Of a stretch of DNA of 64,000 nt, positions 18,289-61,883 are shown one piece after another. Positions within the stretch are counted from its first letter, which is position 1; every line of letters begins with the position of its first letter. The DNA is from Eubacterium maltosivorans (lineage in GTDB: Bacteria > Bacillota > Clostridia > Eubacteriales > Eubacteriaceae). The translations under genes were made by a program, and so were the position numbers. The notes under the pieces were generated by a model, which was given only the letters and a program-made list of their open reading frames with translations, did no database searches and was not told the origin of the DNA. The stretch spans positions 4,080,349-4,144,348 of the forward strand of contig NZ_CP029487.1 in assembly GCF_002441855.2 (NCBI RefSeq), in the 5' to 3' direction.

Positions 18289-18969
18289 ATGTATAGAAAA
18301 TATACATCTGAAGAAAAATTGAATATTGTGGAGGGATATCTGAATGGGCTTTTTTCCTTGGAAGAAAAAGCCCATGAGTTAGGATATAAGTCAGCACCGG
18401 GGTGCTTTAAACGATGGGTACGGCAGTATCAAGAGCAAGGAGCAGAGGGACTCTTGTGTTCGGCAGGTAATAAATCTTATACAGCAGAATTCAAAACAAT
18501 GGTGGTTGAAGAGTATCTTTCTGGAAAAGGCTCCGCAGTTGAACTTGCCGCAAAACACAAAATTAGTACAGCAGATGTTTTGTTGCATTGGGTTTCGTTG
18601 TATAATGCCAATAGAAAGCTTAAGGATTATAATCCTAAGAGGGAGGTCTATATGGCAGAAGCACGGAGAAAAACAACTTTGGAAGAACGAGAAGCAATTG
18701 TTAAATACTGCATTGTCCATGATAGAGATTACAAAGAAACCGCTTCTTTGTTTGATGTTTCATACAGCCAGGTTTACTCCTGGGTGAAAAAATATGATGC
18801 TAATGGTGAAACTGGTTTGGTTGATCGGCGCGGGCACCATAAAGCAGATGACGAAGTGGATGAACTGGAACGGCTGCGCCGAGAAAATATACGGCTCAAA
18901 AGCCAGCTTGAAGAAAAGGATATGGCAGTGGAACTGTTAAAAAAAGCGAAAGAATTCGAAAGGATGTGA
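18289..18969 (+). CDS. IS3-family transposase OrfA (DNA-binding)
   Basis: This 226-residue protein has two helix-turn-helix modules: one in residues 1-60 (YTSEEKLNIVEGYLNG and KRWVRQYQEQG), a short second repeat around 65-105, and a third HTH_28-like unit at about 128-180 (TLEEREAIVKYCIVHDRDYKETA). A leucine-zipper-like coiled coil (ELERLRRENIRLKSQLEEKDMAVELLKK) closes the chain. OrfA gives terminal-repeat binding in IS150-type elements. A run of seven A at 18939-18945 near the end may cause -1 frameshifting into OrfB. Confidence 0.92.
   Translation: MYRKYTSEEKLNIVEGYLNGLFSLEEKAHELGYKSAPGCFKRWVRQYQEQGAEGLLCSAGNKSYTAEFKTMVVEEYLSGKGSAVELAAKHKISTADVLLHWVSLYNANRKLKDYNPKREVYMAEARRKTTLEEREAIVKYCIVHDRDYKETASLFDVSYSQVYSWVKKYDANGETGLVDRRGHHKADDEVDELERLRRENIRLKSQLEEKDMAVELLKKAKEFERM
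18939..18945 (+). other. Putative -1 ribosomal frameshift site (A7)
   Basis: The orfA codons read TTA AAA AAA GCG, giving an A AAA AAA slippery heptamer. The -1 frame stays open from here into orfB, so slippage would produce the OrfAB fusion transposase known from the IS3 family. Confidence 0.7.
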
Positions 18970-19931
18970 GATTTGGAAAACAACGCTTCGAATCGAAATA
19001 TATGGCGATTCAATATTTTATTGAAAAAAAACAATGGAGCATCAACTGGATGTGCAGACAGTTGGAAATTTCACGCGCAGCTTATTACAAATGGCTGCAC
19101 CGCTCAGTTCCTGAACGGGAGGCAGAGAATTTAAAGCTGGCAGAATTGATAAAAGAGTACGATGAACGTTTTTGCCGCATCTTAGGCTACCGGAGAATGA
19201 CAAGTTGGATAAACCATTTCAATCATACGAACTATAGCAAGAACCGGATTCATAGGATTATGAAGAAACTTGGAATACATTCTGTTATTAGAAAAAAGAA
19301 GAAAACATACCATTCTTCCAAGCCGGAAGCTACTGCTGAAAATAAGCTCAAAAGAGATTTCAATGCAGGAAAACCTAATGAAAAATGGGCTAGGGATATA
19401 ACAGAATTTAAAATTCCCGAAACCGGAAAGAAGTTGTATCTCAGCGCCATATTTGACCTTTATGACCGTTATCCAGTAGCTTATGTTATCAGCTGGAGAA
19501 ATGACAACAAGCTTGTATTTGATACATATGACAAAGCAGTGGAACAGAATCCGGAAGCCAGACCACTCTTTCACAGCGACAGAGGCTATCAGTATACGAG
19601 CAAGGTATTCCAGACAAAGCTTCAAGAACAGGGAATGGCTCAATCCATGTCACGTGTCGGACACTGTATTGATAATGGACCCACAGAAGGCTTGTGGGGA
19701 ATTATCAAGTCTGAAATGTACTGTATGTATAAGATCACCGACGAAGGCTCCCTGTATTCTGCCATCCATGGATATATGAAATTTTATGCCAATGAAAGAC
19801 CACAGGACAGATTTCATTGTAAAACACCATCTGAGGTAAGGCGGGAGGCACTGGCTTCAGAAGCAGCTATTCAGTACCCGATTTCTGAAAACAAACGGCT
19901 AGAAGCCTACAAAGCCAAATGGTGTGCATAA
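18966..19931 (+). CDS. IS3-family transposase OrfB (DDE integrase domain)
   Basis: This is a 321-residue catalytic half. The HTH_21-like N-terminal part (YFIEKKQWSINWMCRQLEISRAAYYKW) is followed by the retroviral-integrase-like core. The acidic triad is visible in WARDITEF (first D), LFHSDRGYQYTS (second D) and DNGPTEGLWGIIKSE (final E), as in the IS150 group. The GTG start overlaps the orfA stop by four bases. It may be made mostly as the OrfAB fusion by frameshifting. Confidence 0.93.
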   Translation: MRFGKQRFESKYMAIQYFIEKKQWSINWMCRQLEISRAAYYKWLHRSVPEREAENLKLAELIKEYDERFCRILGYRRMTSWINHFNHTNYSKNRIHRIMKKLGIHSVIRKKKKTYHSSKPEATAENKLKRDFNAGKPNEKWARDITEFKIPETGKKLYLSAIFDLYDRYPVAYVISWRNDNKLVFDTYDKAVEQNPEARPLFHSDRGYQYTSKVFQTKLQEQGMAQSMSRVGHCIDNGPTEGLWGIIKSEMYCMYKITDEGSLYSAIHGYMKFYANERPQDRFHCKTPSEVRREALASEAAIQYPISENKRLEAYKAKWCA

Positions 19932-20028: not shown

Positions 20029-20062
20029 GTCTCGCGGCTCCTTCTCGTCTTAGACGAGAAGG
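20029..20062 (-). terminator. Terminator of the UROD gene, split by the IS
   Basis: On the - strand, a first hairpin (20040-20062, arms CCTTCTCGTC and GACGAGAAGG around the TTA that encodes the stop) covers the end of the UROD gene. Next comes one arm of a second hairpin at 20029-20040; its other arm lies 1.8 kb away at 18214-18225 (GAGCCGCGGGAC) and is followed on the - strand by a T-rich tail. Joining the flanks restores a 12-pair stem (one non-Watson-Crick pair) with a TTC/GAA loop. The IS now separates the arms, so the terminator should be weakened or lost. Confidence 0.75.
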
Positions 20063-21429
20063 TACATAAAAAAATTGATCAGCTCGCTGTTGAGCTGTGC
20101 CAGGTTTCCTTTAGCAATTTCAGGAACCAGTGGGTTTTCAGTTTTAAAAGCCTCCCAGGTAGTCAGATATCTAGACTCGATTGGTCTGAATTTACCTGGG
20201 TCAAAGACAAAGCCTTCTGCATTCAGCGGTGTGCCGCAGGATTCTCCGGCATTTTTGTAGACACCGTATTTCGCGACTGTTTCGGATAAGGCAGTCCAGT
20301 TATCAATGTTGACTTCGTTCAGAAGGAATGGGTTTTTATCAAAGTGGAAATAATAGCCGCCGCTTGGCATCATAATGTCGAGCAGCTCCCTGGCTTTGCT
20401 TACGACTTCCTCTTTGGTGCCGCGAAGGGCAGAAACAGGGAAAAGTCCCTGGATAATCATCTTGTCGCCCAGTTTATCCTTAATCAGCTGAGGATCGCCG
20501 AATTCAAACCACATCTGTGTTCCGGCAGGGAAATCCTGCAATACGTCCAGGTAGCGTGTCCAGTCATCCTCACAGAAAATATTGCAGCGTACGCCAAGAG
20601 CTGCGTACTGCTCGATCATGGTTTTAAAGGTTGGCAGCCACAGATCAAGAAAATCCTTTTCGCGCATGAAGGTTGGCATATGAAGTGGAATAAAGACAGA
20701 GCCTTCTGCGTTTGGAACCGGAGGACGTCCCCATTCAAACAGTACAGGCAGCAGGGCTTCGCAGGCTTCCTTAAGCTCGCTGCGGTGGCGGCGTATGTCC
20801 ATACTCACACCGCTGAAGCTTCTGAGCTGGTCGGCAATAAAATCAAAGGGGGCTTCTGTCATGCCGGAAGAGCCGGCGGGAGCGCCGGGATAGTGTCCGC
20901 CCTGTTCTGTGATTTCCATGAACCAGGGCAGTGAAGCGTTGATTGATTTATCCAGGCTGGACTGAGCCTTCATAATCGTTGTGGCGGTTTTAAATCCGTC
21001 ACAGGGATCAAGATTTTTATACTGGCGTGGGATAACAGTCTCCATTAAAAAGGTAAAGGGATCGTCAATCAAGGCACGGTACTCGTCAGACTGCATACCG
21101 ACAACCTCAGGGTGCTGGACGACTCCGTTCTTTCCCATTACAAAAGACTGAGAGCCCAGGATCTGGTAAAATTCTGCCGGACGGTTAAGCACCTGGCTGC
21201 ACGGAAGAATAGGAGTCACATCTGAGATAATTCGTTTATCCAGTGCTAGCGCAGGCTCGCGCAGACGTCCGTAATCGTACTGATAGTCAAAAAGATTCTG
21301 TCCGCCGTATTCTGCTACCAGATAGTGAGAGATCATATAGCCGGTAGGCACATGATCTGGAATCCGGTTGTTATAAAAATCATGGAAATTTTTGATCCTA
21401 TTTTCCTGTAGTTTCTTGTTATCACTCAT
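20050..21429 (-). CDS. UROD-fold protein, probable methyltransferase (fused-tail form)
   Basis: This 459-residue protein of the uroporphyrinogen-decarboxylase superfamily is similar along residues 1-391 to the protein at 59827-60984; for example, both contain IPLHM...MREKDF, EDW.RYLD and QHPEV.GM. In acetogens members of this fold act as corrinoid-dependent methyltransferases, and I infer such a role rather than heme synthesis. The canonical His-x-Cys zinc motif of MtaA/CmuA is not seen, so the chemistry is open. Residues 392-459 form an extra tail whose last 42 residues resemble the separate 48-residue ORF at 59668. The start at 21429 follows GAGGTG. A Crp/Fnr gene lies upstream on the same strand. 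Confidence 0.8.
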   Translation of the reverse strand: MSDNKKLQENRIKNFHDFYNNRIPDHVPTGYMISHYLVAEYGGQNLFDYQYDYGRLREPALALDKRIISDVTPILPCSQVLNRPAEFYQILGSQSFVMGKNGVVQHPEVVGMQSDEYRALIDDPFTFLMETVIPRQYKNLDPCDGFKTATTIMKAQSSLDKSINASLPWFMEITEQGGHYPGAPAGSSGMTEAPFDFIADQLRSFSGVSMDIRRHRSELKEACEALLPVLFEWGRPPVPNAEGSVFIPLHMPTFMREKDFLDLWLPTFKTMIEQYAALGVRCNIFCEDDWTRYLDVLQDFPAGTQMWFEFGDPQLIKDKLGDKMIIQGLFPVSALRGTKEEVVSKARELLDIMMPSGGYYFHFDKNPFLLNEVNIDNWTALSETVAKYGVYKNAGESCGTPLNAEGFVFDPGKFRPIESRYLTTWEAFKTENPLVPEIAKGNLAQLNSELINFFMYLLV

Positions 21430-59599: not shown

Positions 59600-59639
59600 A
59601 AAAGACCGTATCTGTACGATTCAGATACGGTCTTTTTTT
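59600..59639. terminator. Terminator after the aldolase gene
   Basis: A 15-bp perfect stem (AAAAGACCGTATCTG / CAGATACGGTCTTTT) with a 7-base loop and T run. It may also stop the convergent small ORF transcript. Confidence 0.93.
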
Positions 59640-59667: not shown

Positions 59668-59814
59668 TCAGGAGATCAGGTAGATCATAAACCCAAAGAG
59701 AAGTTCCTCGACCGATTGCAGGCTTTCGGCCGCAAAAGGAGCGGCTTCCTCGGGAATATCATATTTATTCATGGTTTCTTCAAAATCAGTGTAATATTCG
59801 GATTTTACAGTCAT
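59668..59814 (-). CDS. Small 48-residue protein, split homologue of a UROD C-terminal tail
   Basis: This short ORF begins ATG at 59814 with GGAGG five bases upstream, 12 bases after the stop of the UROD gene. It starts MTVKSEYYTDFEETMNKYDI and ends in a hydrophobic FMIYLIS. It is acidic and predicted helical. It resembles the last 42 residues of the UROD-fold protein at 20050-21429: S.Y.T..E near the start, a PE..A block, then L.S.E and an FM.YL end. I therefore regard it as a real gene. The function is unknown; a partner subunit of the methyltransferase is the natural guess. Confidence 0.75.
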   Translation of the reverse strand: MTVKSEYYTDFEETMNKYDIPEEAAPFAAESLQSVEELLFGFMIYLIS

Positions 59815-59826
59815 TGGTGCCTCCTG

Positions 59827-60984
59827 TTAATAGATTCCGTATTCATGTACGAAATTGAATACTGCTTTTAAGTTCGCTGGATTAATGTCATTGAGGCGGA
59901 GAATGGCTTTGTCAAAGCCAAAAATGTATCCGCCGTCCGGGGCGAAGATGTCGATTAATTCTTTTGCCTTGTCGATACATGCCTGCTCAGTGCCCGATTT
60001 TAAGAGACCGATGGGGTAAAGGCCGCTGACGATATGCCGGCTGCCTACCTTTGCTTTTATTTCCTTAGGGTCGCCATATTCAAAAACCATTAAAGTATTT
60101 TCAGGCAGCTCATTTAAATAGTCCAGGTAGCGGGACCAGTCTTCTTCCACAAAAAGATTGGCGCCGGCTCCCGCGGCGTTCAGCCCTTCGACATAAGCTT
60201 TAAAGGTTGGCCAGTAGAATTTCAGGAAGTCCTTTTCGCGCATGTACGGCGCCATGTGGAGCGGGATAAAGGTTCGGTTATAGCGGCTTGAAGCAGGATT
60301 TACACCAGCCTTCAGGCAGACCGGCAGTAATGCCTCACAGGCGGCGATGACTTTGTCCGGACAGCGGCGGATATCCTTGCTGATGCCTGAGAAAGAGCGC
60401 AGCTGGTCGGAAAGCGTATCCAGCGGCTCGGCTGAAGCGGCTGAGGCCATGGTATAGGTGCTCCGTCCATATTTTTCGGCAATTTTCTGATAGCCCTCAC
60501 CCAGTGCGGCCATACTGCTCGCAAAGGTAAAGAAGGCCTTGGCCAGAACCTTCTGCCCCTCAAATCCGGGGCGGTTGAGTTCTTCATAAATTCTTGGAAG
60601 AATGGTTTGCCAGAGTGTTTTTACCGGATCGGCAATAAAGGCGTCGTAATCCTCAACCTCCATACCGCGGACCTCCGGATGCTGTAAAAATCCATCGGCG
60701 CCCATTTTAAAGTTTTTTGCGCCTAGAATTTTATAAAGCTGTGGAAGACGGATGGTAATGCCGAGAACCGTGTCCCCGTCAAAATCGCGGGTGGTGACGT
60801 CAATGGCTTCCAGGGTTTTTTCGATACTGTACTGTTCTTTTTTGAGGCTATAGCCGGCATACTCAAGACAGAAAGCATTGTCAATATTTGTGAGAATTGG
60901 AACGCGTGAGGGCATTTTTCCATCAAAAACAGCCTCAAAAACTTTATTTACCGCATGGGTTTTTTCATTTAAAGATGTATTCAT
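59827..60984 (-). CDS. UROD-fold protein, probable methyltransferase (split form)
   Basis: This 385-residue UROD-superfamily protein is a paralogue of the gene at 20050. Shared blocks include Y.ILG....MG..G..QHPEV.GM, L RSFSGIS.DIRR, FIPLHM..(Y/F)MREKDF and (E)EDW.RYLD. It ends at EYGIY, the point where the paralogue (KYGVY) goes on into its extra tail. The start at 60984 follows GGGAGG; a long in-frame extension to 61158 would cross the operator region. Controlled by a promoter flanked by three TetR-type operators. Substrate unknown; corrinoid methyl transfer is inferred from the family in acetogens. No corrinoid protein is adjacent. Confidence 0.82.
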   Translation of the reverse strand: MNTSLNEKTHAVNKVFEAVFDGKMPSRVPILTNIDNAFCLEYAGYSLKKEQYSIEKTLEAIDVTTRDFDGDTVLGITIRLPQLYKILGAKNFKMGADGFLQHPEVRGMEVEDYDAFIADPVKTLWQTILPRIYEELNRPGFEGQKVLAKAFFTFASSMAALGEGYQKIAEKYGRSTYTMASAASAEPLDTLSDQLRSFSGISKDIRRCPDKVIAACEALLPVCLKAGVNPASSRYNRTFIPLHMAPYMREKDFLKFYWPTFKAYVEGLNAAGAGANLFVEEDWSRYLDYLNELPENTLMVFEYGDPKEIKAKVGSRHIVSGLYPIGLLKSGTEQACIDKAKELIDIFAPDGGYIFGFDKAILRLNDINPANLKAVFNFVHEYGIY

Positions 60985-61181: not shown

Positions 61182-61883
61182 GTGAAAGAGAAATTGGATA
61201 AAAAAAAGGCGAAGCAGATTATTTATGAAACAGCAAAGCGTTTATTCTTTGAAAAAGGGTATGAGGTCGGAAGCCGCCAGATCGCAAAGGAGGCAGGTGT
61301 CAGCCAGGCGCTCATTACCTATCATTTTGGCAGCAAGCGAAACATAGGTATTCAGGTCCTTAAGGAGGATTATCGGGTGCAGGCCTCATACCTGAAGTAT
61401 TTTGTCGATCCGAAGGAGGAACCCCTGTTTTTTATTATCAATTTCCAAAATATGACCATGCGCATCCGTGAGCACGACCCGCGAATGGCTTCTTTTATTA
61501 CAGGTGTGATGAAGGAGGACTTACTGGAGGAATCCATTTACGAAGGCAATCAGGCTGAAATTTTTGAAGCTCTTGTCCGTGAGATGCCGGCCAATGGTTA
61601 TAGCTTTGAAAAAAATTATAAGCTTGCACTGGGGACAATTTTCGGCATACAGCGTTCGCTGCAATGGAAAATTAATCAGGGCTTTGATCTGACCTACGCA
61701 GAATGCTTTGATTATGTTGTGCGCAGCTTTAATTTTGCTCTCAACCTGAATTTTACCGAGGCGGAGATTCAGGACATGATTGAGCGGTCAAATCGGATGG
61801 TCGATCAGCTTTTCGAGCGTTATCCGCAGCTGTTAGATACCGACCAGTACCTTGTAGTACAAAATATGGGATCAGATTCCTGA
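61182..61883 (+). CDS. TetR/AcrR-family transcriptional regulator
   Basis: This 233-residue regulator has an N-terminal TetR HTH (about residues 10-56: QIIYETAKRLFFEKGYEVGSRQIAKEAGVSQALITYHFGSK) and a large helical C-terminal domain. It is transcribed away from the UROD gene, and the region between holds three matching palindromes, so it likely represses both genes. The GTG start at 61182 follows GGGAGA; an in-frame start at 61119 lies next to the operators and has no ribosome site. The terminator overlaps its stop codon. Confidence 0.9.
   Translation: MKEKLDKKKAKQIIYETAKRLFFEKGYEVGSRQIAKEAGVSQALITYHFGSKRNIGIQVLKEDYRVQASYLKYFVDPKEEPLFFIINFQNMTMRIREHDPRMASFITGVMKEDLLEESIYEGNQAEIFEALVREMPANGYSFEKNYKLALGTIFGIQRSLQWKINQGFDLTYAECFDYVVRSFNFALNLNFTEAEIQDMIERSNRMVDQLFERYPQLLDTDQYLVVQNMGSDS

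Follow-up and report, generated by a model that had tools for sequence, protein, structure and literature searches.

A conserved small open reading frame behind UROD-type methyltransferase genes of Eubacterium maltosivorans and other Bacillota: a candidate enzyme subunit

Organization of the locus

The window, that is, the whole stretch of 64,000 nucleotides of Eubacterium maltosivorans DNA that was analysed, holds two genes for UROD-fold proteins, which score 32.4 and 27.0 bits against PF01208 (the UROD superfamily; gathering cut-off 23.9). One of them is followed by a small open reading frame (ORF) as a separate gene; the other carries the corresponding module fused to its 3′ end (Table 1). 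At the first locus the UROD gene ends with a TAA at 59829-59827 and the ATG of the small ORF lies at 59814 on the minus strand, a spacing of 12 nt. The coordinates, strand, start codon, Shine–Dalgarno sequence and spacing of the small ORF had been given in a first-pass annotation, and all proved correct when checked against the sequence. The inverted repeat directly behind the small ORF contains T-runs, so the ORF probably stands last in a unit of two genes and closes its transcript. A TetR-type regulator gene diverges from the pair, and reading of the sequence gives a comparable layout at two paralogous loci (L002, L004).

The fused paralogue at 20050-21429 extends 68 residues beyond the KYGVY of its UROD part, as had been described. 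Its linker starts with KNAGE. The motif YxN[AP]GE recurs right after the UROD part in many fused proteins (such as L112, L117, L120 and L125), whereas the separate forms are without it. Near the fused gene, two adjoining ORFs at 18289-19931 resemble, by eye, an IS3-type transposase pair (orfA, orfB).

Table 1. Features of the two UROD loci in the window
Feature	Position	Strand	Basis
Probable (bidirectional) terminator, inverted repeat with T-runs, directly behind small ORF	59600..59639	.	Sequence reading
Small ORF, 48 aa + stop, separate form of the module	59668..59814	-	ORF, paralogues, purifying selection
Shine–Dalgarno sequence AGGAGG, 5 nt upstream of small-ORF ATG	59820..59825	-	Sequence reading
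UROD-fold protein, 385 aa, predicted methyltransferase I, partner of small ORF	59827..60984	-	PF01208, 32.4 bits
TetR-type regulator gene, divergent from the pair	61182..61883	+	Sequence reading
Fused module, 42 aa + stop, homologous to small ORF; protein helices 425-431 and 437-458	20050..20178	-	
Linker of fused paralogue	20179..20256	-	
UROD-fold part of fused paralogue, residues 1-391	20257..21429	-	

The small ORF as a conserved gene

The first-pass annotation had aligned the 48-residue product with the end of the fused tail. A BLASTP comparison of this original pair returned zero alignments at E ≤ 100, and the by-eye alignment is therefore no evidence in itself. The homology holds at the level of the family: a profile built from separate small ORFs only matches 54 of 73 fused proteins at E < 0.001, in the tail every time, and recovers the window's own fused tail with E = 8.7e-4, while the best decoy or tail-less UROD protein reaches E = 0.46. 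Homologues are not confined to the original pair, as clear paralogues of the 48-residue protein exist elsewhere in its genome (E 5e-15 to 4.6e-8).

Codon substitution in the small ORF is not random. Six closest-homologue pairs drawn from different genomes are informative, and their dN/dS is 0.02-0.12 or zero, with about 75 synonymous against about 40 non-synonymous differences in sum. One such pair, of 48 codons, differs by 22 synonymous and 16 non-synonymous changes, with a dN of 0.16 and a dS of 1.9, which is near saturation. The sole difference in one further pair is a single synonymous site. The small ORF is a real, conserved gene under purifying selection, and this selection, together with the fusions, points to its translation. 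Such a short gene could easily be overlooked by annotation. The window ORF, the fused tail and ten divergent members have no match above cut-off in Pfam and NCBIfam, and no description of the small protein was found in the open-access full text searched.

Distribution of the module

The genome to which the window belongs encodes 22 copies of the UROD-type protein, the window copy included, and all 22 have the module: 19 are followed by a downstream ORF of 36-59 codons and three have fused tails. The same genome also has four UROD-superfamily genes that are more distant (classical, MtaA-like) and have no module. The expansion of UROD-type methyltransferase I genes is larger in some relatives, with 30-32 copies (G002, G003, G057, against 22 in G000, the window genome).

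For a wider view, 77 loci from named Bacillota genomes were picked by UROD similarity alone, and the module is found at all of these except one (L134). Together with 149 further loci they yield 185 proteins under 90% identity. The first pass over this set gave 60 fused forms, 122 separate forms and three rows that were left uncalled; in two of the three, a small ORF lies 160-165 nt downstream of the UROD gene. The module thus occurs in 184 of the 185 non-redundant relatives (60 fused, 124 separate), although single cases are less certain among the most divergent members, where the small ORF was chosen by mechanical rules (length, Shine–Dalgarno sequence, hydrophobic end). The many fused or adjoining copies that had been anticipated are therefore present. 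The one remaining locus (L134, JAAZIQ010000063.1, 7156-7800) is the sole member of the short clade without a small ORF within several hundred bases; its module may be borrowed in trans, or lost. L226 and similar loci, which have no module, turned out to be CdmB-like.

The association is specific to this clade. Under strict rules, an ORF of this kind lies behind 50 of 58 separate UROD genes and behind one of 498 other genes at the same loci; four of five apparent matches among the controls were UROD genes left unfiltered and were rejected. Of 398 genomes sampled evenly across the phylum, 24 have a match to the small-ORF profile and 23 of these also hold the UROD clade; the match in the 24th falls within an unrelated 807-aa frame (G448). 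Outside the window genome, the profile matches in this sample are located where a listed UROD match ends or close to that point, with two exceptions: the one in G448 and one with an internal stop (G310:C42). No UROD relative was found in the plasmid collection. One relative (G185:C327:6005-7123) contains a single in-frame TAG, which may reflect a pseudogene, a sequencing error or possibly pyrrolysine.

The window's small ORF shows the features by which the family is recognised, namely adjacency or fusion to a short-clade UROD gene (about 385 aa), a hydrophobic C-terminal helix and a profile match. Two parts of the original proposal were too narrow or too broad. The module is not restricted to acetogens, as Peptococcaceae, Desulfotruncus, Geosporobacter, Thermosediminibacter and other groups have it too, and it is not general to UROD-type enzymes, being absent from the classical UROD/MtaA-like members and from the CdmB-like clade.

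Short ORFs are common by chance and the original pairwise likeness was not significant, so it has to be considered that the ORF arose by chance or that the conservation behind UROD genes is non-coding. This explanation is refuted by the dN/dS of about 0.1 or less, the background rate of one in 498 genes and the in-frame fusion to the enzyme in 60 of 185 proteins, and its likelihood is negligible.

Repeated fusion

On the UROD tree, the state of the module shifts between fused and separate at least four times, at least three of which are forced by well supported branches, the deep long branches of this FastTree phylogeny being unsure. The fused groups comprise a clade of 52, the pair L170 and L289, a distant clade (L217, L220 and L223-L225) and L222. 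The tree suggests at least three to four events of fusion or fission. The trees of 22 UROD/small-ORF pairs correlate (r = 0.74), which is expected from linkage alone.

Gene neighbourhood and the role of the UROD protein

Methyltransferase I is the enzyme that moves a methyl group from the substrate to a corrinoid protein. In anaerobes of gut and sediment, UROD-type enzymes of this kind remove methyl groups from plant compounds, drugs and halogenated compounds. The UROD/small-ORF pair of Peptococcaceae and other groups adjoins genes for a pterin-binding methyltransferase II, a B12-binding corrinoid protein and an MFS transporter. Of 108 neighbours, 37 are B12-binding proteins, 16 Pterin_bind proteins and 20 MFS genes. 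Because these operon partners match the make-up of corrinoid methyltransferase systems, the UROD protein of the clade is probably a corrinoid-dependent methyltransferase I. The window locus has neither a corrinoid-protein gene nor a methyltransferase II gene adjoining it. The UROD copies inspected in the window genome are mostly two-gene units with no corrinoid protein directly adjoining, unlike the operons of Peptococcaceae.

Predicted contact between the two proteins

The AlphaFold2 model of the fused protein has a mean pLDDT of 95.2 and a pTM of 0.93, and its tail, with a pLDDT of about 89-97, forms a short helix (425-431) and a long helix (437-458), although modelling on a fused chain may bias toward docking. 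The separate pair of the window was modelled as a read-through product, in which the UROD stop codon was read as Gln; this is a modelling device only, and by chance the two reading frames are in phase. The same two helices are obtained, at lower confidence (pLDDT of 70-86 in the small part). Foldseek and VIA searches with the fused model returned the UROD fold alone (residues ~4-395), so that the tail was barely tested, and CdmB was absent among the matches.

Covariation provides a second line of evidence. Over all pairs, the maximum among about 800 registers places the tail helix antiparallel on helix 145-176, which lies within the insertion between barrel strands 2 and 3. This register scores 4.7 against 2.5-3.6 in nine shuffled pairings, a modest signal from mean-field couplings over 236 concatenated pairs (effectively 145 sequences). 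It is also the maximum in separate pairs alone, and ranks sixth in fused proteins alone. The model and the covariation supply the interface that the first-pass annotation had expected, and contact between the small protein and its UROD partner is accordingly a prediction from both.

Hydrophobic residues make up most of the last 11 positions of the small protein. With MFS genes as frequent neighbours (20/108), this could be taken to indicate a small peptide that anchors the enzyme in the membrane or couples it to the adjoining transporter. None of 182 members has a transmembrane-grade stretch, however, the maximum Kyte–Doolittle mean over 19 residues being 1.13 against a threshold of 1.6, and the fused model positions the tail with high confidence. 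On both grounds the anchor was rejected, and it is very improbable. A hydrophobic end that falls short of membrane grade is as expected for a helix buried in a hydrophobic insertion core.

It has also been considered that the small protein binds the UROD enzyme as an adaptor that recognises the partner corrinoid protein, which would be important where some 20 enzymes may share few such partners. Corrinoid proteins adjoin the pair in many genomes, families of paralogues need partner choice, and the N-terminal part of the small protein (YYxxWE) is conserved to a degree that packing explains only in part. The mostly hydrophobic C-terminus nevertheless fits a buried helix better than an exposed recognition surface, and covariation in the UROD/small-protein pairs analysed points to the enzyme's own insertion. 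The adaptor is unlikely.

A proposed role for the small protein

The product of the small ORF is likely a non-membrane subunit of two helices that belongs to one clade of corrinoid-dependent, UROD-fold methyltransferases I, where it would complete the enzyme's hydrophobic insertion domain. The small protein would bind its own UROD partner, with the C-terminal hydrophobic helix packed antiparallel on the long helix 145-176 of the strand 2-3 insertion. In the related enzyme CdmB, the insertions form dimer contacts and a hydrophobic substrate tunnel (PMC13222342). Packing of the small subunit would complete the domain that has these functions in CdmB, and without the subunit the substrate pocket may not close or take its correct shape. 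In the most speculative step, it may also tune substrate specificity.

Since the same CdmB insertions also mediate the dimer (PMC13222342) and the tail is predicted to pack on the corresponding insertion, the small protein could instead be a factor for stability or dimerisation, needed for folding or for the dimer interface and with no role at the pocket. Permanent fusion in at least three lineages speaks against a transient chaperone, and a lasting role in the dimer would still make the small protein a subunit. This alternative has a rather small probability, above that of the adaptor.

The best reading is that the small protein family is an undescribed small subunit, which would make the clade a two-part form of a known enzyme superfamily. 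One Eubacterium genome encodes more than twenty such enzymes. If each of them includes the small protein, work so far, from annotation and the design of knock-outs to expression in other hosts and structure prediction, has rested on an incomplete enzyme. The finding offers a simple way to test if the enzymes of the clade require a second, overlooked part.

Comparison with known systems

The nearest solved sequence relative is CdmB, the chloromethane methyltransferase of Acetobacterium dehalogenans (PDB 9rui), with E values of 6e-24 for the single sequence and 6e-47 for the profile. It shares the UROD fold and the insertions set between the first three strands (PMC13222342), and its C-terminal Y is the one at which the UROD part here also ends. 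It differs in being 429 aa long and having no tail; its strand 2-3 insertion is about 33 residues longer, and its structure and activity were described without a small subunit (PMC13222342). CdmB-like genes (405-416 aa, longer insertion) have no small ORF behind them in 15 of 15 cases. The window proteins fall outside the CdmB-like clade (405-430 aa, extended strand 2-3 insertion), being about 30 residues shorter at this insertion.

The longer insertion of CdmB and the absence of the module from all 15 CdmB-like genes make it a reasonable hypothesis that the small subunit replaces the built-in segment, although the clades differ in other respects too. The small subunit would then do in trans what the longer insertion does within the CdmB-like enzymes. 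The fuller version, in which the clade is two-part and an exchangeable small subunit both completes the substrate tunnel in trans and helps to set specificity, as the counterpart of the insertion built into CdmB-like enzymes, is a tentative proposal that may well prove wrong. On that reading, the large gene expressed heterologously by itself would yield an incomplete enzyme.

The O-demethylases MtoB and MtvB are likewise described as UROD-superfamily substrate:corrinoid methyltransferases I that work with a corrinoid protein and a second methyltransferase (PMC8630106). MtoB, a protein of 47-48 kDa, was active after purification, and the portion of that source consulted mentions no small subunit (PMC8630106); it is likened here by description, not by sequence. 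MtaA/MtbA, HemE and other classical UROD proteins share PF01208 and the fold (VIA Z of about 20-22 over about 310 residues), and differ in that the module is absent, as seen in the four such genes of the window genome. MtrI and MtrR of the archaeal Mtr complex (PMC12774963, PMC13370731) belong to another, membrane-bound complex and are cited as precedent only: they too are recently found small proteins on a corrinoid-linked methyltransferase.
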